A stretch of DNA of 46,906 nucleotides, from positions 1 through 46,906 of IMG/VR virus record IMGVR_UViG_3300022932_000005. One strand, written 5' to 3'. Shown here in pieces: positions 8,327 to 46,906 of the stretch. The notes beneath the pieces are model-generated. The model worked only from the letters and a program-made list of their open reading frames with translations. It was not told the DNA's origin and ran no database searches. The translations under genes and the position numbers were made by a program. The DNA comes from a virus. The stretch's first letter is position 1; each line of letters starts with the position of its first letter.

Positions 8327-8354
8327 ATATTACTCTTCCTGACCGAGCAGTCAA
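8327..8354 (-). promoter_or_regulatory. Leftward early promoter with overlapping 14-bp operator
   Basis: On the - strand, TTGACT (8349-8354) and TAATAT (8327-8332) are 16 bases apart. The operator TGACCGAGCAGTCA occupies 8340-8353 on the + strand and covers the -35 box. A 34-bp stretch (8331-8364) is the exact reverse complement of 23590-23623, which holds another early promoter. It drives the genes at 8282 and 8082. Confidence 0.75.
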
Positions 8355-10887: not shown

Positions 10888-11024
10888 TTAAAGGTAACTC
10901 CGGCGGTACAGCCGAATGCGCCAAGCCAGTAAAGGCCTTGCATGCGGTCGCCCGAATAAAAGTAACAGGCGCTAAGAATTGAGAACTGTATTAACAGTCC
11001 GTAATTTAGGATTATAGGACTCAT
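10884..11024 (-). CDS. Tiny membrane-like protein (46 aa)
   Basis: A 46-aa gene between DUF1643 and the polymerase, joined to both by ATGA overlaps, which is strong evidence that it is translated. It is hydrophobic and aromatic, with segments at about residues 4-22 and 30-43 separated by S-G-D-R. It is probably an inner-membrane peptide. No homologue recognised. Confidence 0.7.
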   Translation of the reverse strand: MSPIILNYGLLIQFSILSACYFYSGDRMQGLYWLGAFGCTAGVTFK

Positions 11025-11497
11025 TCGTCGATACAGCTATACGGCAGCATAAGCGGATGCGCGGGCGTTCCGTCAGCCAGCAGGCGAAGGGCTCGGTACC
11101 TAACTCCTGATAGCTTTATGTTATTTAGCATTCTTTCCGCGTGTTCATGGTGACGGGCGTTAGCTCCCCAGGCAAGTATAACCATGCCGTCCTCGAGTTT
11201 AGCGTTATTAATCGCTTCCCTGACATAGTCGTTATTTGCTTCCCCTTGCGGCCAGCCTATGCTCTGTATATCTGCCGGGAACCTAGAACGATACGCGTAC
11301 AGGTTAACTACCTGGATACCGGTAAACAGCATCCGGCGCGCGAAGCCGATACACTTGCGGATAGTCGGGTCGTCTACGTCCGCGTCGGCCGTACTGGGAT
11401 TAAGCATGATAAAGACCAGCGTTTTACCGTCGCCCCATTTACGGGTAAGGCTATAGCGGAACTGCCCGCAGGGGGATATAACGGCGCTCTTAATCAT
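11021..11497 (-). CDS. DUF1643 family protein
   Basis: A 158-aa protein with the DUF1643 signature. It begins with Y-S-L-T-R-x-W, then F-I-M-L-N-P-S-T-A-D-A and D-D-P-T-I-R-K-C-I-G-F-A-R-R (residues about 29-56), V-V-N-L-Y-A-Y-R, a central L-A-W-G, and ends with G-T-P-A-H-P-L. Biochemical function of the family is unproven. It is often found in phages and near DNA-modification or defence genes. Here it sits in the polymerase operon. Confidence 0.88.
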   Translation of the reverse strand: MIKSAVISPCGQFRYSLTRKWGDGKTLVFIMLNPSTADADVDDPTIRKCIGFARRMLFTGIQVVNLYAYRSRFPADIQSIGWPQGEANNDYVREAINNAKLEDGMVILAWGANARHHEHAERMLNNIKLSGVRYRALRLLADGTPAHPLMLPYSCIDE

Positions 11498-16018: not shown

Positions 16019-16233
16019 AACTTACCCCCGCGCAATACAAAATTCTCCTCCTCGTAGCGTCCGGCCATCTCTACCGCGAGGACGGCGCGTACCTGGTTAA
16101 CGGGAACCGGCCGATACCTGCCGCCGACGTTAAGGTACTCGAGGACCGGGGGCTAGTTATAGATACGACTATTGTAAAGGGCGCCCAGTCCTGCCGAGTC
16201 GTATTAACCGAGAAAGGGCGTAAGCTGCTATGA
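16015..16233 (+). CDS. Small winged-helix-like protein
   Basis: A 72-aa protein. The pattern M-K-L-T-P-A-Q-Y-K-I-L-L-L-V-A, a short hairpin, then L-E-D-R-G-L-V and a closing V-V-L-T-E-K-G-R-K-L-L resembles a minimal winged helix such as those that end L-T-x-x-G. ATGA overlaps tie it to both neighbours. It may bind DNA. Fold assignment by pattern only. Confidence 0.6.
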   Translation: MKLTPAQYKILLLVASGHLYREDGAYLVNGNRPIPAADVKVLEDRGLVIDTTIVKGAQSCRVVLTEKGRKLL

Positions 16234-16937
16234 CTATCCGCCACGTAGTAGGGCTCTCAGGCGGGAAAGACTCTACCGCTTTAGCGTTGCGCCTGGCGGA
16301 GCTTAATCCGGACGTAGACTACGAGTATATCTGCAATGAGACCGGCGACGAGCTGCCCGAGATGGTCGAGCACTGGCGCAAACTTGAGGAGCTTCTAGGT
16401 AAGCCATTAATCCGGGTCCGGTATAAGCTGGACCTTTACGGTACTATCGAAGAGATAGGCATGGTACCTAACGTTTTTCAGCGCTGGTGCACTCGTATTT
16501 TAAAAATAGAGCCGACGCTCGATTACTTTGATTCGCTGCCGGCAGACTCGATACTGTACGTCGGCCTGCGGGCGGACGAGGAGGAACGCGTCGGGCTGTA
16601 CGGCGATGACGTTACATGCAGCTTTCCAATGCGTGACTGGGGCTGGACAGAGGCCGACGTATGGGCGTACCTGCAGGAGCGAGGCGTAACTATTCCGGAG
16701 CGTACCGACTGCGCCCTTTGCCCTTACCAGCGTCTAGGAGAATGGCGAGCCCTGTACTTTAACTACCCCCTCCGTTACGCCCAAGGTATCGCTATAGAGG
16801 AAAAATACGGCCATACGTTCAGGTCGGACGGTCGCGATACGTGGCCAGCAGCGCTTAAAGACCTCGCCGTCGAGTTCGATAACGGCCGTAAACTACGTAA
16901 TTTTAAGAACCCTAAACGTTGTCAGGTGTGCAAATGA
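16230..16937 (+). CDS. PAPS reductase-like PP-loop ATPase
   Basis: A 235-aa protein. The PP-loop S-G-G-K-D-S is at residues 10-15 and binds ATP in this superfamily. R-W-C-T-R-I-L-K near residue 89, D-C-A-L-C-P-Y near 158 and C-Q-V-C at the very end supply cysteines that could hold a metal or an Fe-S cluster. Members adenylylate a substrate for sulfur transfer, reduction or base modification. In phages the substrate is usually unknown. It is placed with a helicase, an Nmad5-like protein and a DNA methyltransferase, so a nucleic acid modification role deserves thought. Confidence 0.85.
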   Translation: MTIRHVVGLSGGKDSTALALRLAELNPDVDYEYICNETGDELPEMVEHWRKLEELLGKPLIRVRYKLDLYGTIEEIGMVPNVFQRWCTRILKIEPTLDYFDSLPADSILYVGLRADEEERVGLYGDDVTCSFPMRDWGWTEADVWAYLQERGVTIPERTDCALCPYQRLGEWRALYFNYPLRYAQGIAIEEKYGHTFRSDGRDTWPAALKDLAVEFDNGRKLRNFKNPKRCQVCK

Positions 16938-18687: not shown

Positions 18688-19182
18688 ATGAAACTTTCTA
18701 ACTATATCCGCGACTCTTTTGTACGTGCTGTTATGCAGGATGTGCCTACTGTTGACCACTCCGAGGAAGCCCGCAAGTTAATCCAGGCCGACGCGTTTGC
18801 CCAGCTACCTAAGCCTATCGCAGATATCGTCAAAAAAGGCGAATTAACCGATTACTTAAACTCCCATTACTACTATGTAGATGACTGCCGCTGCCTCGGT
18901 ACGGTATCCGTTTATAACCTGCGCGGCTTTGAGGTCGGCGACGATACCCGCGCTAAAGTAGAGGCGCTGCACGCTGCGCATGAAGCAGACAAGGAAACCC
19001 GCAACGCGCTCGAGTCTAAGCTCAAAGCGGCTATCTATTCCGTTACGACACTGAAAGCTGCGCAGGACTTGCTGCCCGACTTGGTTAAATACCTCCCGAC
19101 GGAAACCGCTGACACCGTCGGCGTACCTGCTGTCGCTAATTTGGTGGCCGATTTAAAGGCGTCGGGCTGGGCAGGTAAGTGA
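18688..19182 (+). CDS. Nmad5-like protein (putative nucleotide modification-associated)
   Basis: A 164-aa protein. The start, M-K-L-S-N-Y-I-R-D-S-F-V-R-A-V-M, then D-V-P, the central A-I-Y-S-V-T-T-L-K-A-A, L-P-x-L-V-K-Y-L-P and the ending V-A-N-L-V-A-D-L-K-A-S-G-W fit my memory of the Nmad5 family. That family was named for its association with nucleotide-modifying systems, but its chemistry is not established. Located between the helicase and the VRR-NUC gene, three bases after the helicase stop. Confidence 0.7.
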   Translation: MKLSNYIRDSFVRAVMQDVPTVDHSEEARKLIQADAFAQLPKPIADIVKKGELTDYLNSHYYYVDDCRCLGTVSVYNLRGFEVGDDTRAKVEALHAAHEADKETRNALESKLKAAIYSVTTLKAAQDLLPDLVKYLPTETADTVGVPAVANLVADLKASGWAGK

Positions 19183-20761: not shown

Positions 20762-21073
20762 ATGAATACTAAATACAATCGGCAGACCAAAGACGTACGT
20801 AAAGAGGATATTATTTTATCCGCTATGAAAATCGCGGAAAAAGTAGGCCTCGCGGGGGTACGTCTCGCCGCAGTCGCCGCGGCCTGCGGGGTCTCCCGTG
20901 GGCTCGTTATGTACCACTTTAGCACCATGACCCAGCTTAACCGCGACATTATCCGCCACGCTATTAAAGCCGAGGTATTGCCGATAGTCGCCCAGGCGCT
21001 CGCCATGAAAGACCCCCAGGCCCAGAAGGCCCCCGAGGATTTAAAGACCCGCGCCCTTGCTACGCTGAGTTAA
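20762..21073 (+). CDS. Truncated TetR-family DNA-binding regulator
   Basis: A 103-aa protein. Residues about 14-63 form a TetR-type helix-turn-helix: I-L-S-A-M-K-I-A-E-K-V-G, then V-R-L-A-A-V-A-A-A-C-G-V-S-R-G-L-V-M-Y-H-F, and L-N-R-D-I-I. Full-length TetR proteins are about 190-210 aa with a large C-terminal dimerisation and ligand domain. Here only about 40 residues follow the DNA-binding part. TetR proteins bind palindromes much like the TGACTGNNCAGTCA sites found at the early promoters. I infer that this is their repressor, without an inducer pocket. Confidence 0.85.
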   Translation: MNTKYNRQTKDVRKEDIILSAMKIAEKVGLAGVRLAAVAAACGVSRGLVMYHFSTMTQLNRDIIRHAIKAEVLPIVAQALAMKDPQAQKAPEDLKTRALATLS

Positions 21074-21077
21074 GCGT

Positions 21078-23450
21078 ATGCAACAATTACCCCCCGCACT
21101 GGCGCCGCTTGCAGCGTACGCCCAGTTTATCGTCTATAAGCTCGCTCCAAAGAAAGACGAGCCCGGTAAGATGACGAAGCTCCCTATCGACGTACGCACC
21201 GGTAGGATGCCATTAAAAGATAGCGGCGCCTCCTCGATATGGACAGACGCAGAGACGGCCCTCGCCGCCGCCCAGGTATTCGGCCCGAGCTATGGCGTCG
21301 GCTTTAGCTTCGCCGAGAGTGACCCGTTCTACTTCCTGGATATAGATAACTGCCTGCTCCCTAATAATACGTGGAGCCCGCTCGCCCAGCATCTTATGGC
21401 GACCCTGCCCGGCGCCGCTATCGAGATATCGCAGTCGGGTCGAGGCCTCCATATCATCGGGACCGGAACGCCCCCGGAACATGGCTGCAAGAACGAACAT
21501 TTAGGTTTAGAGTTCTATCACACTGAACGCTTCGTAGCCCTTACCGGATACAGCGCCCAGGGCGACGTCCGTACCGACCATAGCCACGTATTACCGTGGC
21601 TGGTAAGCACCTATTTTAATGGCTCCGATGGTATGGGTAGCTCGAGCAAGTTACAAGCCTGGGAGGCCCACCTTAATGGACCGGTACCAGAATGGAATGG
21701 GCCAAAAGATAACGCCGAGCTGGTTAAGCGAGCTATCGGCTCGAAGTCAGCGGTCGCAACGTTCGGCGGTAAAGCGTCGTTCGCGGACCTCTGGTACGCC
21801 CAGGAGGAGGCCCTGGCGGCCACGTATCCGGATGGCAATACGTACGACGCCTCGAGCGCCGACGCTGCCCTGGCTCAGCATCTGGCATTCTGGACAGGTA
21901 GGGACGCCCAGCGTATCCATGACATTATGCAAGGCTCGAGTCTCCGCCGGGATAAATGGGAGGAGCGGGCCGATTACTACCTGCCGGTTACTATCGGCGC
22001 CGCATGCGCCAGGCAAAGGGAAGTACTGCAGGATAAAGCGCCCCAGGCTCTCACGATTGAATACGATACGCCTGACGGTACGCTCGAGACGGCCGCTACC
22101 CTGGTGAACGGGGCGACTTACCTAAGTATCGAGAATCAGCTCGACCTCTTCAAAGGATGTACCTATGTTACCGACGCGCATAAGATACTTATACCTGGCG
22201 GCGATATGCTTAACGCAGAGCGATTTAGGGTTAGGTACGGCGGCTTTACCTTTCCGATGGACAACGGCAACGAGCGACACGTCCGCAACGCCTGGGAGTG
22301 CTTTACCGAATCCCAAGCCTTCCGCGGTCCTCGAGCGGACTCGACCTGCTTCCGCCCCGCGCTGCCCCCTGGCGCTGTCGTACGCGAAGCCGGGCGACTC
22401 CTGGTTAATGCCTGGTGGCCCATTGATACGCCCAGGGCTCAGGGCGACGCTACGCCGTTCCTGCTCCACTTAACGAAAGTACTCCCAGATACCCGCGACC
22501 AGACGATACTCCTCTCGTACATGGCCGCCTGCGTACAGCATAAGGGCGTCAAATTCCAATGGGCGCCGCTCCTGCAAGGCGTAGAGGGTAACGGTAAGAC
22601 GCTGTTTACCCGCTGCGTGGCCGAGGCTATCGGCGCCAGGTATACGCACTTCCCGCCAGCGCATGAGATTAACGAGAAGTTCAACTCCTGGCTGTTCAAT
22701 ATGCTCTTTATCGGCGTCGAGGATATCTACGTCCCCGAGCATAAAATGGACATATTCGAGATACTGAAAGGCATGATAACCGGCGACCGGCTGGCGAAGC
22801 GCGCCATGCAGACCGACCAGGTCATGCACGACGTATGCTGCAATTTTCTATTCAATTCGAATCATAAGGCAGCGATACGTAAGACCCGAAACGACCGGCG
22901 TATCGCCCCGTTCTATACCGCCCAGCAGTCCGCCGAGGACCTACGCCGCGACGGTATGGTAGACGACTACTTCCCGGAGCTGTACGCCTGGCTACGTGGC
23001 GGCGGGTATGCCATCGTGACCGAACTCCTCTATACCTACCAGATACCCCCGGAGTTCAATCCGGCCGGTAGTTGCAACCGCGCACCGAACACGTCAGCCA
23101 CGGAATTAGCTATCGAGAACGGTCTAGGCCGCGTCGAGCAGGAAGTACTCGAAGCCATCGACCGCGAGGATATGGGCTTTAGGGGCGGCTGGATATCGTC
23201 GATATTCTTCGAGCGCCTGCTGGACCGTATCGGTAGCTCTCGGTTCGTACCGCCTAACAAGCGCCGGGAGCTCCTGCAGAATATCGGCTACGACTGGGTC
23301 GCCGGGCTACCGAACGGGAAAGTAAACAATATCCTCATGCCAGACGCCGGGAAGCCGAAACTCTACGTAAAGAAAGACTCCCCGCTTAACAACATCCATA
23401 GCCCTGCGGAGATTGCGCGCGCCTACTCTGACGCCCAGCAGGAGACGTGA
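21078..23450 (+). CDS. Primase-helicase (archaeo-eukaryotic-type primase plus SF3/D5-like helicase)
   Basis: A 790-aa replication protein. The N-terminal domain has F-L-D-I-D-N-C (Asp88, Asp90) and S-Q-S-G-R-G-L-H-I (about 118-126), typical of primase-polymerase folds. A linker domain follows. The helicase has Walker A G-V-E-G-N-G-K-T (about 500-507) and, some 40 residues later, L-F-I-G-V-E-D-I as the likely Walker B, then L-F-N-S-N-H-K-A. It would unwind and prime the origin for the family A polymerase. Starts four bases after the regulator stop. Confidence 0.88.
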   Translation: MQQLPPALAPLAAYAQFIVYKLAPKKDEPGKMTKLPIDVRTGRMPLKDSGASSIWTDAETALAAAQVFGPSYGVGFSFAESDPFYFLDIDNCLLPNNTWSPLAQHLMATLPGAAIEISQSGRGLHIIGTGTPPEHGCKNEHLGLEFYHTERFVALTGYSAQGDVRTDHSHVLPWLVSTYFNGSDGMGSSSKLQAWEAHLNGPVPEWNGPKDNAELVKRAIGSKSAVATFGGKASFADLWYAQEEALAATYPDGNTYDASSADAALAQHLAFWTGRDAQRIHDIMQGSSLRRDKWEERADYYLPVTIGAACARQREVLQDKAPQALTIEYDTPDGTLETAATLVNGATYLSIENQLDLFKGCTYVTDAHKILIPGGDMLNAERFRVRYGGFTFPMDNGNERHVRNAWECFTESQAFRGPRADSTCFRPALPPGAVVREAGRLLVNAWWPIDTPRAQGDATPFLLHLTKVLPDTRDQTILLSYMAACVQHKGVKFQWAPLLQGVEGNGKTLFTRCVAEAIGARYTHFPPAHEINEKFNSWLFNMLFIGVEDIYVPEHKMDIFEILKGMITGDRLAKRAMQTDQVMHDVCCNFLFNSNHKAAIRKTRNDRRIAPFYTAQQSAEDLRRDGMVDDYFPELYAWLRGGGYAIVTELLYTYQIPPEFNPAGSCNRAPNTSATELAIENGLGRVEQEVLEAIDREDMGFRGGWISSIFFERLLDRIGSSRFVPPNKRRELLQNIGYDWVAGLPNGKVNNILMPDAGKPKLYVKKDSPLNNIHSPAEIARAYSDAQQET

Positions 23451-26529: not shown

Positions 26530-26749
26530 TAGTCAATTAATTTGGCGGGCTATGAACTTAGCCGTAGAGTACGAGCGGTCATTTATTGACGCTCTAAAAG
26601 GCTGTAATAGTCCTTCGGATATTGAAGCCCGTCAGCATGCCGAGCAGTTCATTAAAGAGGCCCGAGAGTATTTGAAAAAGCATTACACTACACCTAAAGA
26701 CCCGATGGCTGGTGCTGAGAGTATAAATATTACCGAGCTGATATCATGA
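26513..26749 (+). CDS. Hypothetical helical protein
   Basis: A 78-aa protein, helical and charged, with A-R-Q-H-A-E-Q-F-I-K-E-A at about 39-50. AGAGG lies upstream of the ATG. Overlaps the next gene by ATGA. Not recognised. Confidence 0.66.
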   Translation: MAKRTNSQLIWRAMNLAVEYERSFIDALKGCNSPSDIEARQHAEQFIKEAREYLKKHYTTPKDPMAGAESINITELIS

Positions 26750-26931
26750 GCGAGCGCGAGGTACAGCAGAAGCGTATGCAGGCGCTCAAAATAGAGAAAG
26801 AGGGCGCCAAGGCCTGGAAGAAAGGCATATCTAAATCGCAGAATCCGTATCACGGTAAATCGTTCGACGCGTTCCACTGGGCGAAAGGCTGGGATATGAA
26901 GCAGGCGCGATGGGTGGACTCTGTAGTATAA
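26746..26931 (+). CDS. RMF/CrpP-like small protein
   Basis: A 61-aa basic protein. E-G-A-K-A-W-K-K-G, then N-P-Y near residue 33, then W-A-K-G-W follow the spacing of the ribosome modulation factor/CrpP-like fold (A-x-x-G, N-P-Y, W-x-x-G-W). RMF makes inactive ribosome dimers in enteric bacteria, and CrpP-like proteins are common in phages with unclear jobs. Last gene of the array, followed by a terminator. Confidence 0.62.
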   Translation: MSEREVQQKRMQALKIEKEGAKAWKKGISKSQNPYHGKSFDAFHWAKGWDMKQARWVDSVV

Positions 26932-27411: not shown

Positions 27412-27753
27412 ATGGACGAACCTCTACCGTACGGCATTATCGACCCAGACTACGCTAGGGTCTACACAAAAGCGCGTTGTACTGCGTGGTCTTATGGCTA
27501 TGCCTGCGTGATGCACGGCTCATTTACGCGCGACCTGGACCTATTGCTAGTACCGTGGGCGGACCATTGCTTCGCGGACCCTGAGCATATCGTACAGGTC
27601 ATCGCTGGCCGCTGCGACTTAGAGATATCAAAAGGCTCTACCGATAAACCTCATGGCCGCGTCGCGTTTACGCTAATGTTTAAAGAGTTCGGCGACCCGA
27701 GGTTTATCGACGTATCAGTTATGCCTATGATACCTAGGCATGAGATAGGTTAG
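27412..27753 (+). CDS. Nucleotidyltransferase-like phage protein
   Basis: A 113-aa protein. M-H-G-S-F-T-R-D-L-D-L near residues 34-44 resembles the G-S-x-x-R-D-x-D core of polymerase beta-type nucleotidyltransferases, and I-D-V-S-V-M-P near the end supplies a further Asp. I recall stand-alone versions in many phages, with no known substrate. Its start is 18 bases past the preceding terminator. It converges with the zinc protein and overlaps it by four bases. Confidence 0.6.
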   Translation: MDEPLPYGIIDPDYARVYTKARCTAWSYGYACVMHGSFTRDLDLLLVPWADHCFADPEHIVQVIAGRCDLEISKGSTDKPHGRVAFTLMFKEFGDPRFIDVSVMPMIPRHEIG

Positions 27754-28085
27754 CGACGGATATCGTCTAACGTCCATTGCAGCGCCGTAGGCTTCTCTTC
27801 TACCGCCGGGCGTAAGGTTTTACCCGAGTCAAAGATTCGCGCCAGCTCGAGGGCCGCTACGTAGTCTCGAATGAGTTGTTCATCGTGAGGGTGGACAATG
27901 AAATTGAGCTCTTTCATGCCTGACTCTTTTATCATAGTTCCGCGTTGGAATCGCTTCTGGGCCTCCCTCCCGCATGCTACGCAGCCTCCAGTAGAGACGA
28001 ATCGCTCGCCGTTATGTCCTCGTAGGCAGGGATTGCCCGTCGTGTAGCGCTTTAAGCCAGCGTTTAAGGCCTCGGTTCTGGTCAT
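27750..28085 (-). CDS. Zinc-binding protein related to HNH-type N-termini
   Basis: A 111-aa protein on the - strand. N-P-C-L-R-G-H, then G-G-C-V-A-C-G-R-E within residues 18-42 form a Cys/His metal site like those at the start of phage HNH endonucleases. No HNH catalytic core follows. The C-terminal half is helical. GAGG lies upstream of the ATG. An isolated leftward gene beside the terminase, where HNH proteins often take part in packaging, but this one lacks the nuclease part. Confidence 0.6.
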   Translation of the reverse strand: MTRTEALNAGLKRYTTGNPCLRGHNGERFVSTGGCVACGREAQKRFQRGTMIKESGMKELNFIVHPHDEQLIRDYVAALELARIFDSGKTLRPAVEEKPTALQWTLDDIRR

Positions 28086-28155
28086 TATGTAGCCCTCAAG
28101 AGATTAGATATACTACAATATACAGGAGATAGAGCGCTAAGTCTACCCCGCGACT

Positions 28156-28220
28156 GATAGTTTACCCCGCACGGGGTATCGCTGTAAGCCTACTGCCGCA
28201 AGGGTTTCGATAGTTTACCC
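28156..28220. repeat. Pair of 12-bp direct repeats
   Basis: GATAGTTTACCC occurs at 28156-28167 and 28209-28220. Start-to-start distance is 53 bases, close to five helical turns, so both lie on one face of the DNA. A related CTACCCC is at 28143-28149. Confidence 0.75.
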
Positions 28221-28267
28221 AAAATACCACGCATGGGGGTATCTTACCTAGATAAATGATATATGTA

Positions 28268-28296
28268 TTAAGATAAGACAGTACAGTACTTATACA
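28268..28296 (+). promoter_or_regulatory. Candidate late promoter
   Basis: TTAAGA (28268-28273) and TATACA (28291-28296) are separated by 17 bases, upstream of the terminase and all late genes. Each box matches four of six consensus bases. No early operator is nearby. Confidence 0.4.
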
Positions 28297-28335
28297 TACT
28301 CTATCTATATTCCTAGCTCTGAAATATATTAATAG

Positions 28336-28353
28336 TTAAGGGTATTAAGGGTA
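28336..28353. repeat. Tandem 9-bp repeat
   Basis: TTAAGGGTA occurs twice back to back (28336-28344, 28345-28353). It carries the GGGTA core seen again in the repeats at 28401-28430 and, in reverse complement, in the left repeats. Confidence 0.7.
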
Positions 28354-28400
28354 AAGTACTATAGAGTATTGATTTATATAGATATTAAATACCCCCTAGT

Positions 28401-28430
28401 TAGAGGTAAATAGAGGGTAATAGAGGGTAA
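28401..28430. repeat. Three helically phased 10-bp repeats upstream of terS
   Basis: TAGAGGTAAA, TAGAGGGTAA and TAGAGGGTAA stand head to tail with exactly 10-bp period. This is the arrangement expected for a ring-shaped TerS binding its pac site, or for an iteron. The third copy also contains GAGGG, a possible ribosome site for a TTG start at 28438. Confidence 0.75.
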
Positions 28431-28467
28431 CGTTGCGTTGCTCGGCGTTATCGTGGATACTCAGCGT

Positions 28468-29244
28468 ATGTCTAAGCCATTGACCCTTAAACAATTGAAG
28501 TACTGTAACGAGCTCTTCCGTACAGAGGACCGCTCGGCGTCTTATCGTGCGTGCTACAACGCTGAAAACATGGCAGATTCTAGCGTACAGTCCGCTTGCT
28601 CAGAGCTACACCGTAACCCATTGATAGAAGCTAGGCTCGAAGAGCTCAAAGAAAACGCCGCGTACGTAGCGCAGCTTGATGTAGCGTGGGTGCTCAAGCA
28701 GTACATGCGGATAGCTACAGCCGACCCTAACGCCCTGGTCGAGAGCCGCGTCGTCTGCTGCCGGCACTGTCATGGCGTGGGCCATGCCTACCAATGGAAA
28801 GACGAGAACGAATGGGCGGCCGCACTGGCAGCGACGCTCGAGTACAATGCGCGGCTGCAGGAGGCGCGAGGCAAAGATAGGCCAGCCCCCCGCTCCCTCC
28901 CGACTATCGACGGCGGCGTCGGCTTCTGGGCGACAAAGCCCCCGGTCGATACGTGTACCGAATGCTTCGGCCAGGGTACGCATGAGACCGTACTCCACGA
29001 CTCGAAGAAAGCGAACAGCCCACTCTATGCCGGCGTTAAGCCAACCTCAGCCGGCCCCCAGATTATCCTACGCGACCAGGCCGGGGCGCTCGAGTACTTG
29101 GCGAAGTATCTCGGCATCGACAAGAAGACGCTCGAGGTATCAGGGCCAGGCGGCGGGCCGCTGCAGTCCATTACTAGCATGACGAACGACCCCCTCGAGG
29201 CGGCGAAAATATACATGGCGGCTATGGGCGGGGCTAAGCCCTAG
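28468..29244 (+). CDS. Terminase small subunit with zinc insertion
   Basis: A 258-aa protein from the ATG at 28468. A TTG at 28438 with GAGGG upstream would add ten residues. Residues 1-60 match the terminase small subunit helix-turn-helix family (L-T-x-K-Q-L-K-Y-C, then A-S-Y-R-A-C-Y-N). Residues 97-101 and 163-170 carry C-C-R-H-C-H-G-V-G and C-T-E-C-F-G-Q-G, two C-x-x-C-x-G-x-G halves as in DnaJ zinc domains. It recognises phage DNA and activates the large subunit, whose start overlaps its stop. Confidence 0.85.
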
Positions 29245-32866: not shown

Positions 32867-33733
32867 ATGGTAGCTCTCGTTACGAAGAAGCGGGCCGGCT
32901 GGGCGGAGTCTCGAGGGGGCGCTACGTTCAAAGGTACGCGCCTCAACTACAACGCCTCGAGTCAGGACAAATACGTCGCGGCGCTAACGGCCCTCGTTAA
33001 GCAGATGACCGCCCAGACGTTGCGCGACGTTAAAAACCTATTCGAAGCGCATGCTCTCGACGGCATAGCGATGGATGCAGACCCGGCCAGCCAGGCGCGT
33101 ATCCTCGCCAATAAACTAACCGCTAAGTTTGACGCGCTCTTCGGACGCCGGGCTAAAGAGCTGGCGGACAGGATGGTCGCCGCGGCCGACGCGAACAGTA
33201 AGACAGCGCTACACGTAAGCCTGAAAGAACTCTCCGGCGGGCTATCGCTTAAAACCAGTATGATAACCGGCCAGCTCCGGACGACATTGACCGCCACGGT
33301 AGCCGAGAACGTATCGCTAATTAAATCTCTACCTACTGACTTTCTTTTTCAGGTAAAAGGTACTATCCTGCGGGCTATCGCGAACGGTAACGGCCTGGCG
33401 GATATCGTCCCTCAGCTCGAGAAGTACGAGGGCGTCACGCTCAGGCGCGCGAAGAATATAGCGCTCGACCAGACGCGCAAGGCCTACAACAATATCAACA
33501 AGGCGCGTATGCAAGCGGTAGGCGTTAAAAAGTTCGAATGGATACACTCAGGCGGAGGGCAGACGCCCCGCCCGGACCACGTAGAGATGGACGGGAACGT
33601 TTACAGCTTTGACGACCTGCCGGTTATCGACGAGAATACCGGAGAGCGTGGAATCCCCGGCCAGGCGGTTAACTGCCGTTGTACGATGGTACCGGTAGTC
33701 GAGTTCGGCAACGAGGAAGAGGCGGCAGCATGA
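32867..33733 (+). CDS. Head morphogenesis protein, Mu F/SPP1 gp7-like
   Basis: A 288-aa protein. The C-terminal third has the family pattern: A-x-D-Q-T-R-K-A-Y-N-N-I-N-K-A-R, F-E-W-I-H-S-G-G, P-R-P-D-H-V-E-M-D-G and P-G-Q-A-V-N-C-R-C-T. These are minor head proteins that enter the capsid with the portal. Its stop overlaps the Nudix-protease start by four bases. Confidence 0.9.
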   Translation: MVALVTKKRAGWAESRGGATFKGTRLNYNASSQDKYVAALTALVKQMTAQTLRDVKNLFEAHALDGIAMDADPASQARILANKLTAKFDALFGRRAKELADRMVAAADANSKTALHVSLKELSGGLSLKTSMITGQLRTTLTATVAENVSLIKSLPTDFLFQVKGTILRAIANGNGLADIVPQLEKYEGVTLRRAKNIALDQTRKAYNNINKARMQAVGVKKFEWIHSGGGQTPRPDHVEMDGNVYSFDDLPVIDENTGERGIPGQAVNCRCTMVPVVEFGNEEEAAA

Positions 33734-35226
33734 GCGCAGCGGGAATACTCTACGTAAACGACGATAAGGTCCTCCTCGTCCGGCGCTCCTTAGACTCTGT
33801 AAACCCCGGCCTATGGGGCTTTCCAGGCGGTAAGGTAGAAGCAGGCGAGACAGACGAACAGGCCGCCAAGCGGGAGGCGCTCGAGGAAGTCGGCCACGTA
33901 GCAACGGATTTAATGCGGCTCAATAGTACGAACGGCTTTACCGCGTACCTATGCGAGACAGAAAAGTTTACGCCTGTCCTCAATGACGAGCATACTGCGT
34001 ACGGATGGTTCAAAACATTACCTGCCGGGCTTCACCCTGGCGTAGAGGAAACGGTAGCTATGGTACGTACAGGCATGGACGCGGCGCCCTCGAAGCGCGT
34101 AGCAGACGTCAACGGATTCATTGAGGTAAAAGATAATCCTATCTCAAAAGTAGGGGTGTTCCAGTACTCCGGTCGCGCTATAGGCAAAGGCGACCCGAAT
34201 AAAATGTACATGGTCTACCGCCCCGAGGAAGAGCTAAACAACCCGGAGACTATCGAGTCTTTTCGGCTACTACCCTTCGTGGATGAACACCCTGCCGACT
34301 TGCTAGGCTCAGAGGATAACGACCGCCCTAACGTGGACGGAAAGCCTGCTGATGGGGTTATCGGAGAACAGATTTATTTTAAAGACGGTTATCTCTATGG
34401 TAATCTAAAGTTCTTTACCGACCGGATAATGCGGCAGCTTGCTAAAAAGAAGCGCGAGATATCCGCCGGTTTTCGTTGTATGTATGAAGAAGCTGCAGGC
34501 CAATATAAGGGCTTGCGCTATGATTATATTCAGCGCAACATACGAGGCAACCACGGTGCGCTCGTACATCAAGGCCGAGCAGGCCCAGAGGTTGCGGTAA
34601 TGGACCACTTAACTATGACATTTGACGCTAAGGAGTTTTTCATGGCTGACCCAGTAGAAAACGAAGACAAAGGCGGCGAGGCCAGTATGACCCTAGCCGA
34701 AATTACCGCAACGCTAAAGGCTATCGGCCCTCAGATTGTGGCCCTCAATACTGCTATGGCGGCAATGGCCCCCAGCGCTGCAGCGGCTCCTGCCGTTGAC
34801 GCTGACCCAGCCGCTCTCTCAGATACTACCGTATCTCCTGCCGCGCTTGACGCTGTTAAGTCAGGTATGGATGCGTTAGAAAAGACTATCAAAGTTATCG
34901 GCGTAAGCGTCGAGAAGCTGGAAGCCCAGGGTAAAGGCATGGACGCGAAAGAAGTACTCGCGACTATCGCCGAGCGCGACGAACTCTATAAGGGCGTATC
35001 CGCTGTAGTCGGCGCATTCGACCATAAAGAGATGACCGCCCAGGATATCGCGGTATATGGCGCTGAGAAGTTCGGCCTAAAGGTCGAAGCGAAAGACGCG
35101 CGCGTAGCTGTAGCTTCCTTCCTGGCTGCTAAGCCTGCCGCTAAGAAGGCTGGTTTCGCACTGGACTCCGCGGCCGAGCAGAAGCCTAGCGCCATCCGTC
35201 AACACGTAAACGCCCAAGCCGCCTAA
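33730..35226 (+). CDS. Nudix hydrolase - DUF2213 prohead protease - scaffold fusion
   Basis: A 498-aa three-part protein from the ATGA overlap at 33730. An earlier in-frame start at 33679 would lie in the previous gene. Residues 5-110 are a Nudix domain, with a perfect box from Gly34 (G-x5-E-x7-R-E-A-x-E-E-x-G) to His56. Residues about 118-300 are DUF2213, the capsid maturation protease family, with V-F-Q-Y-S-G-R, D-E-H-P-A-D-L and E-I-S-A-G-F-R-C. Residues 305-498 are helical and Ala-rich like scaffolds. The scaffold part has its own ribosome site. Nudix substrate unknown. Confidence 0.85.
   Translation: MSAAGILYVNDDKVLLVRRSLDSVNPGLWGFPGGKVEAGETDEQAAKREALEEVGHVATDLMRLNSTNGFTAYLCETEKFTPVLNDEHTAYGWFKTLPAGLHPGVEETVAMVRTGMDAAPSKRVADVNGFIEVKDNPISKVGVFQYSGRAIGKGDPNKMYMVYRPEEELNNPETIESFRLLPFVDEHPADLLGSEDNDRPNVDGKPADGVIGEQIYFKDGYLYGNLKFFTDRIMRQLAKKKREISAGFRCMYEEAAGQYKGLRYDYIQRNIRGNHGALVHQGRAGPEVAVMDHLTMTFDAKEFFMADPVENEDKGGEASMTLAEITATLKAIGPQIVALNTAMAAMAPSAAAAPAVDADPAALSDTTVSPAALDAVKSGMDALEKTIKVIGVSVEKLEAQGKGMDAKEVLATIAERDELYKGVSAVVGAFDHKEMTAQDIAVYGAEKFGLKVEAKDARVAVASFLAAKPAAKKAGFALDSAAEQKPSAIRQHVNAQAA
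34629..34635 (+). promoter_or_regulatory. Internal ribosome-binding site for the nested scaffold
   Basis: TAAGGAG lies six bases before an in-frame ATG (34642) inside the protease gene. This is among the strongest Shine-Dalgarno matches in the late region and marks a second start. Confidence 0.75.
34642..35226 (+). CDS. Nested in-frame scaffold protein (internal start)
   Basis: A 194-aa product beginning M-A-D-P-V-E-N-E-D, in frame with the large fusion gene and sharing its stop. Sequence is Ala-rich, acidic and helical with coiled-coil tendency (residues about 90-115 of the nested product), as expected for a scaffold. In lambda the scaffold Nu3 is made from an internal start of protease gene C in the same way. 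Evidence is the ribosome site at 34629 and the abrupt change from protease to scaffold composition. Not proven. Confidence 0.68.
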   Translation: MADPVENEDKGGEASMTLAEITATLKAIGPQIVALNTAMAAMAPSAAAAPAVDADPAALSDTTVSPAALDAVKSGMDALEKTIKVIGVSVEKLEAQGKGMDAKEVLATIAERDELYKGVSAVVGAFDHKEMTAQDIAVYGAEKFGLKVEAKDARVAVASFLAAKPAAKKAGFALDSAAEQKPSAIRQHVNAQAA

Positions 35227-46095: not shown

Positions 46096-46906
46096 ATTTA
46101 TCACTACAACGGGCGTAATCGTCCCTGATACTGCGGATATCCTGGCCGACGTCCAGGACGAATACCGTAATGCGCTGGGCCTCGATTTAATCGTAACGCC
46201 TGATACCCCCCAGGGCGTTTTAATCACTGCTGAGACGCTCGCGCGTGACGCGGTAGTACGTAATAACGCGGCCCTCGCTAACCAGATTAATCCGAACCTG
46301 GCCGGCGGTATATTCCTCGACGCCATTATGGCGCTAACCGGTACCCAGCGCGACGTCGCTACTCCCTCCACGGTAACGGCCACGCTTGCGGGCGTACCGG
46401 GAACGACGATACCTGCAGGCGTACGGGCGGCTACGGCAGCCGGTGACGAGTTCGAGCTGACTACGGCCGTCTTATTGCCTGCCGGCGGCACCATAGAGGG
46501 GCTATTCCAGTCGGTCGAGCTCGGACCTATCCCCGCTATCGCAGCAGCGCTTAACGTTATCGTAGACGGCGTCCTCGGCTGGGAGACCGTAACGAATATG
46601 GTCGGCGCGGTATTGGGCAGCGAGACTCAAAGCGACCAAGGTGCGCGCATGTACCGAAAGAATACCCTCGCGCTGCAGGGCGTCAGCCTGGCCGAAGCGA
46701 TTACCTCCGAGCTGTACGCAATCGAGGGCGTTAGGAGCCTGACGTTTCGCGAGAACGTAACGAACGGGGCGCTCGTTATCGACGGTATTAACTTGGTCGC
46801 GCACTCTATCTGGGCCTGCGTAGACGGCGGTACCGACCTCGCGGTCGCCCAGGCGATACGTCGCGCAAAGAGTGCAGGCGCAAACTATAACGGCGCGGTC
46901 GTCGTA
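46082..46906 (+). CDS. Baseplate J-like protein, N-terminal part (continues at 1-496)
   Basis: The first 275 codons of the 397-aa baseplate J-like protein. T-P-D-T-P-Q-G-V-L-I near residue 39-48, R-D-V-A-T-P-S-T-V-T-A-T-L near 89-101, G-E-F/D-E-F-E-L-T-T type strand, and R-M-Y-R-K-N-T-L-A-L-Q-G near 191-202 are the family pattern. The frame ends exactly at the last base of the window and resumes at base 128. Together with the gp25-like and DUF2612 genes it forms the wedge operon. Confidence 0.88.
   Translation, partial: MADYEFITTTGVIVPDTADILADVQDEYRNALGLDLIVTPDTPQGVLITAETLARDAVVRNNAALANQINPNLAGGIFLDAIMALTGTQRDVATPSTVTATLAGVPGTTIPAGVRAATAAGDEFELTTAVLLPAGGTIEGLFQSVELGPIPAIAAALNVIVDGVLGWETVTNMVGAVLGSETQSDQGARMYRKNTLALQGVSLAEAITSELYAIEGVRSLTFRENVTNGALVIDGINLVAHSIWACVDGGTDLAVAQAIRRAKSAGANYNGAVVV
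46780..46906. repeat. Terminal overlap, right copy
   Basis: Identical to positions 1-127. See the left copy. Evidence that the contig closes as a circle. Confidence 0.93.

Follow-up and report, generated by a model that had tools for sequence, protein, structure and literature searches.

The window analysed here is a whole virus record of 46,906 bp, which ends as it begins, with an exact repeat of 127 nt (1-127 and 46780-46906); its map is therefore circular, and the repeat is probably a k-mer overlap left by the assembly. Where the early gene block gives way to the late one lies a conserved element of about 380 bp (28086-28467). It is bordered on the left by a divergent gene for a zinc-ribbon protein of 111 aa (27750-28085, minus strand; phrog_1081) and on the right by terS (28468-29244, plus strand; PF03592, Terminase_2), which encodes 258 aa from the ATG at 28468. 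The earlier note had ended the region at a TTG at 28438, which is also in frame, but the ATG is the better start. Further to the left, an NrS-1-type primase-polymerase is encoded (21078-23450, plus strand), in which the PrimPol, helix-bundle and DUF5906 helicase domains are all present (PF22763, PF19263) and whose PrimPol region, at the N-terminus, has matches among structures of NrS-1 polymerase (E ~1e-19). Directly upstream of it is the gene for a TetR-like HTH protein of 103 aa (20762-21073, plus strand). Searches for Rfam matches and tRNAs found none.

Several other features of the window were recorded along the way. Seven palindromes of the form TTGACTGnnCRGTCA (at 8340, 13219, 15643, 15671, 18634, 20705 and 23600) likely form a set of TetR operators; several of them overlap a -35-like TTGACT at early operons, and one lies just upstream of the TetR-like gene. 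A NUDIX domain is fused to a DUF2213 head protein (33679-35226), and there are genes resembling Nmad5 (18688-19182), DUF1643 (11021-11497), PAPS reductase (16230-16937) and, weakly, ribosome modulation factor (26746-26931).

Read from left to right, the element begins with a left module (28144-28241) that holds inverted boxes at 28144, 28163 and 28216, direct boxes at 28174 and 28237, and two copies of the 12-mer GATAGTTTACCC (28156-28167 and 28209-28220) which, as had been noticed earlier, are 53 bp apart. It is followed by an AT-rich core (28241-28339). This had been described as an AT-only centre; its A+T content is in fact 76%, and the longest A/T run anywhere in the element is 13 nt, while the element does include the genome's AT-richest 150 bp. 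At the right edge of the core stands box pair A, TTAAGGGTATTAAGGGTA (28336-28353, plus strand), where the previously reported tandem 9-mer TTAAGGGTA is indeed present. Its first box (28340) defines register zero and its second lies at +9. Then come an IHF-like site, TAGAGTATTGATT (28362-28374, minus strand), at +22 and with one mismatch to YAANNNNTTGATW, an inverted box TACCC (28390-28394, minus strand) at +50, and a triplet of 10-bp repeats (28401-28430, plus strand) with boxes at +64 (AGGTA), +75 and +85 (both GGGTA), so that the registers of the window read 0, 9, 22 (one mismatch), 50, 64, 75 and 85.

The position and the period of 10 bp given earlier for the triplet are correct (copies start at 28401, 28411 and 28421); copy 1 differs from the other two at 2 of its 10 positions. 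The right side contains four direct GGGTA boxes, the AGGTA at 28404 and the inverted box at 28390, and boxes of either orientation occur to the left and to the right of the core, contrary to the claim that the motif is read one way on the right and the other way on the left. Neither the IHF-like site nor the spacings that are conserved in relatives had figured in the earlier note. Just before terS, a promoter-like TTGCGT-17-GATACT (28433-28461, plus strand), which includes CGTGG at 28452-28456, may act as a promoter; a standard promoter scan did not find it and scored no sigma-70 promoter on the plus strand. The pattern YGTGG occurs within the last 75 nt at 27 of 31 element loci (3 of 45 controls).

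AT-rich intergenic DNA commonly holds short repeats, and one explanation of the boxes is chance or low-complexity sequence without any function. Ten copies of GGGTA/TACCC fall within the 298 bp of 28140-28437, the densest such stretch of the genome, where dinucleotide shuffles have a mean of 2.0 and none of 5000 reaches ten; the statement that the genome has nothing comparable elsewhere is borne out. The period-10 triplet is likewise reached by none of 2000 shuffles. In a register test the window scores five out of five sites, no position reaches three or more when 1.5 Mb of DNA from related phages is scanned and 20000 local shuffles never exceed three, although the tolerances were set after viewing the relatives and the window, so that the test measures rarity and is not a blind prediction. 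A held-out nhmmer model finds a single place in the window, namely the element, with a score that is weak (E 0.77) because the boxes are short; of the two, the register test carries more weight. The shuffle tests speak against repeats without function and the registers conserved across lineages refute them; this reading is given next to no weight.

When the whole region was searched against phage records, terS coding similarity alone was found, and the element was located in relatives by a motif-density scan over all fetched loci. The highest peaks lie between the zinc-ribbon gene and terS, first in record L085 and then in some 30 environmental phages. Registers across relatives are 0, 8-9, 50-51 (inverted), 74-77 and 82-86, and the IHF consensus, exact in many of them, stands at +22 when it is in minus orientation or at +34 when in plus orientation; in the 400 bp that precede terS, an exact consensus is found at 24 of 31 element loci, as opposed to 1 of 45 controls. 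The spacing is rigid, with the layout in distant relatives kept to within 1-2 bp. The repeats are clearly conserved, and this shared layout lends strong support to the general idea, raised earlier, of a nucleoprotein complex that occupies several sites around an AT-rich core. Copies of the left-module boxes are also present in relatives, where they are less regular, and of 16 phages with the element, 15 have the AT-richest 150 bp of their genome inside it. A single-strand hairpin exposing the boxes was considered as well and rejected: JD001 shows it clearly (z -1.85), whereas most other relatives do not.

Among cultured phages, blastn finds 160 places, some split by record ends, in 71 Jedunavirus-type records (Klebsiella JD001 and its relatives), usually as two copies per genome, upstream of terS and of the Neck1 tail gene. 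The two copies of JD001 are near-identical through the last box, with a -10-like hexamer at equal distance after each. Edwardsiella MSW-3 also has two copies, the second, as in JD001, directly before the Neck1 tail gene, and in both phages the separation is about 13-14 kb. Shewanella SppYZU01 has one copy, before a tail gene, together with a GpA-type terminase, which is unrelated. In Stenotrophomonas B2 the layout is similar and the boxes are altered to the form CTTGGGGTA; in L209 and L227, which belong to the element clade, they are degenerate. FtMidnight has only AAGTCTTTGATTTATAAGG in common with the element, without boxes. In L059 the right side of the element faces the primase-polymerase gene and not terS, and its TerS has no detectable similarity. 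The zinc-ribbon gene adjoins the element divergently in every genome examined, and in JD001, MSW-3, SppYZU01 and B2 this neighbour has the same zinc-ribbon domain as the 111-aa protein of the window. The element, present in some 70 public Klebsiella-type phage records, is described nowhere in the literature searched.

The position directly upstream of terS invites the guess of a packaging site, of pac or cosB-like type, at which TerS (in the earlier note, a TerS ring) would bind the boxes, with the intervening DNA bent by IHF on the model of lambda cosB. The likeness extends to an IHF site that has repeats of a short site to its left and right, at fixed spacing (registers 22/34 and 50, with the one mismatch in the window itself) and beside terS, an arrangement that resembles R3-I1-R2 of lambda (PMC4856287). 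Moreover, headful packaging has been reported for JD001 (PMC10269795), and a pac site should thus exist somewhere in that phage. However, the element is kept in SppYZU01 despite the unrelated terminase, it is carried by L059 with its dissimilar TerS, it is absent from phages whose TerS and TerL are equally similar, and the two distant copies in JD001 and MSW-3 weaken a packaging site further. The boxes also differ from cosB in being tandem at 8-10 bp, in accompanying an AT-rich core, in being independent of TerS type and in sometimes occurring twice per genome, and the lambda TerS is the winged-helix protein Nu1, whereas that of the window is not lambda-type. The pac region of SPP1, which precedes the gene for the small terminase, is similar in having a centre between two protein-binding regions, but those sites share no sequence, unlike the boxes, which are shared and terminase-independent. 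A packaging site is therefore unlikely. In L255 an apparent start inside the element had looked like a hint of a packaging end; that stretch begins at contig position 1797, and the start is meaningless.

The element tracks the primase-polymerase rather than the terminase type. A close full-length homologue of this enzyme is present wherever the element is found and the genome is searchable: in 15 of 15 environmental records of the element clade (47-59%, L209 and L227 included) and in the cultured phages JD001, MSW-3, SppYZU01 and B2 (40-58%). Among phages with an equally similar TerS, the element clade alone combines the full-length enzyme with the TetR-like gene and the zinc-ribbon neighbour, and phages in which TerS and TerL are equally similar but which lack the zinc-ribbon gene and the primase-polymerase have no element. 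The controls G017-G019, which have helicase, exonuclease and SSB in common, possess neither the full-length enzyme nor the element. The TetR-like gene also co-occurs with the element; BLAST misses it in MSW-3 and B2, yet it is annotated in B2. Since the zinc-ribbon, TetR-like and primase-polymerase genes travel together in one phage lineage, the protein that binds the boxes cannot be singled out from this co-occurrence.

The reading that best fits the boxes, the IHF site and the AT core taken together is that the element is the phage's origin of DNA replication, to which we would assign a probability of roughly 0.5. Of the two functions proposed in the earlier note, pac site or origin, the latter remains the best of several candidates. 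It is favoured by the registers common to the window and distant relatives, by the co-occurrence with the full-length primase-polymerase, by the gene that the right side faces in L059, and by the retention of the element in SppYZU01 despite the unrelated terminase. In such an origin, the tandem GGGTA boxes would be bound by the NrS-1-type primase-polymerase/helicase or by the adjacent zinc-ribbon protein, host IHF would introduce a bend between box pair A and the inverted box, and the strained complex would melt the AT-rich core, where the primase-polymerase/helicase could load and begin DNA synthesis; starts on both strands would be allowed by boxes that point towards one another from either side of the core. 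We infer all of these steps of binding, melting and initiation. If the element is an origin, it offers a defined DNA target for asking how NrS-1-type primase-polymerases choose the sites at which genome copying starts.

Iteron-type origins (pSC101, P1 oriR, P4 ori/crr) contain direct repeats, an IHF site and an AT-rich region, and the alpha protein of P4 is a primase-helicase that binds short repeats. The element likewise has repeated boxes, an IHF site and an AT-rich region, although its boxes are much closer together than plasmid iterons. The primase-polymerase family is common to NrS-1 and the window phage, and TTTGGTTA is a short site at which the NrS-1 polymerase begins primer-free synthesis; two copies of it, one per strand, have been proposed as the origin of that genome (PMC8718748, PMC7102993). 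These 8-nt sites are isolated, whereas the GGGTA-type boxes of the window, as candidate sites of the enzyme, stand in arrays, and the weak match between GGGTA and TTTGGTTA counts against an origin. A narrower version, in which the primase-polymerase/helicase itself recognises the tandem 8-10 bp boxes with IHF and the element serves as a primer-free (no RNA) bidirectional origin across the core, is a good deal more speculative, and we put it forward tentatively.

Other observations also weaken the case for an origin. The GC skew, for which the earlier note had listed a lack of change among the refuting signs, shows no switch at the element, though phage GC skew usually follows transcription and is uninformative here. 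Two copies in JD001 and MSW-3 sit badly with a single origin, the IHF site of the window has its mismatch, the co-occurrence stems from one lineage with inseparable linked genes, and the element is nearly always found at the start of a late operon.

This last position suggests a serious rival, less probable than an origin but well worth considering, namely a control region of the late operon at which a regulator of the phage, perhaps the zinc-ribbon protein encoded divergently, would bind the boxes and, helped by IHF, switch on a late promoter before terS and repress or activate the divergent gene. The element has the first late gene on its right in most genomes (in SppYZU01 this gene encodes a tail protein), and the second copies ahead of Neck1, the evenly placed -10-like hexamers of JD001 and the constant zinc-ribbon neighbour are all consistent with such a role. 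Nevertheless, the right module of L059 faces the primase-polymerase gene, the distance from box to promoter differs widely across relatives, KpV52 has further interrupted late segments without the element, a promoter needs no extreme AT core, and the plus strand lacks a scored sigma-70 promoter, as noted above. Were this reading to hold, the element would name the structural-gene switch of a widespread phage lineage. Either as origin or as late control region, it corrects the natural guess that repeats beside terS are a pac site.

A core flanked by IHF sites and short tandem repeats also recalls lambda attP, and the boxes could in principle be arm-type repeats of an integration site. A search of 15 records from the element clade found no tyrosine integrase (PF00589), and such a site is highly improbable.

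Some loci in the relatives deserve separate mention. An AT-rich non-coding gap of FtMidnight (L261, 4900-5060) contains TAAGTCATTGAT and GTAAGTCTTTGATTTATAAGG, resembling the IHF part of the element without its boxes. In gp52 of MSW-3 (L266, 33400-33560), in-frame tandem repeats mimic a GGGTA peak; they are coding and not a copy of the element. JD001 has an unannotated reading frame (L264, 17100-17700, minus strand) that begins with a zinc ribbon and ends in an HNH-like part, and in SppYZU01 the protein encoded upstream of the GpA-type large terminase (L263, 2364-3242) shows both an FtsK gamma domain and a weak match to TerS.
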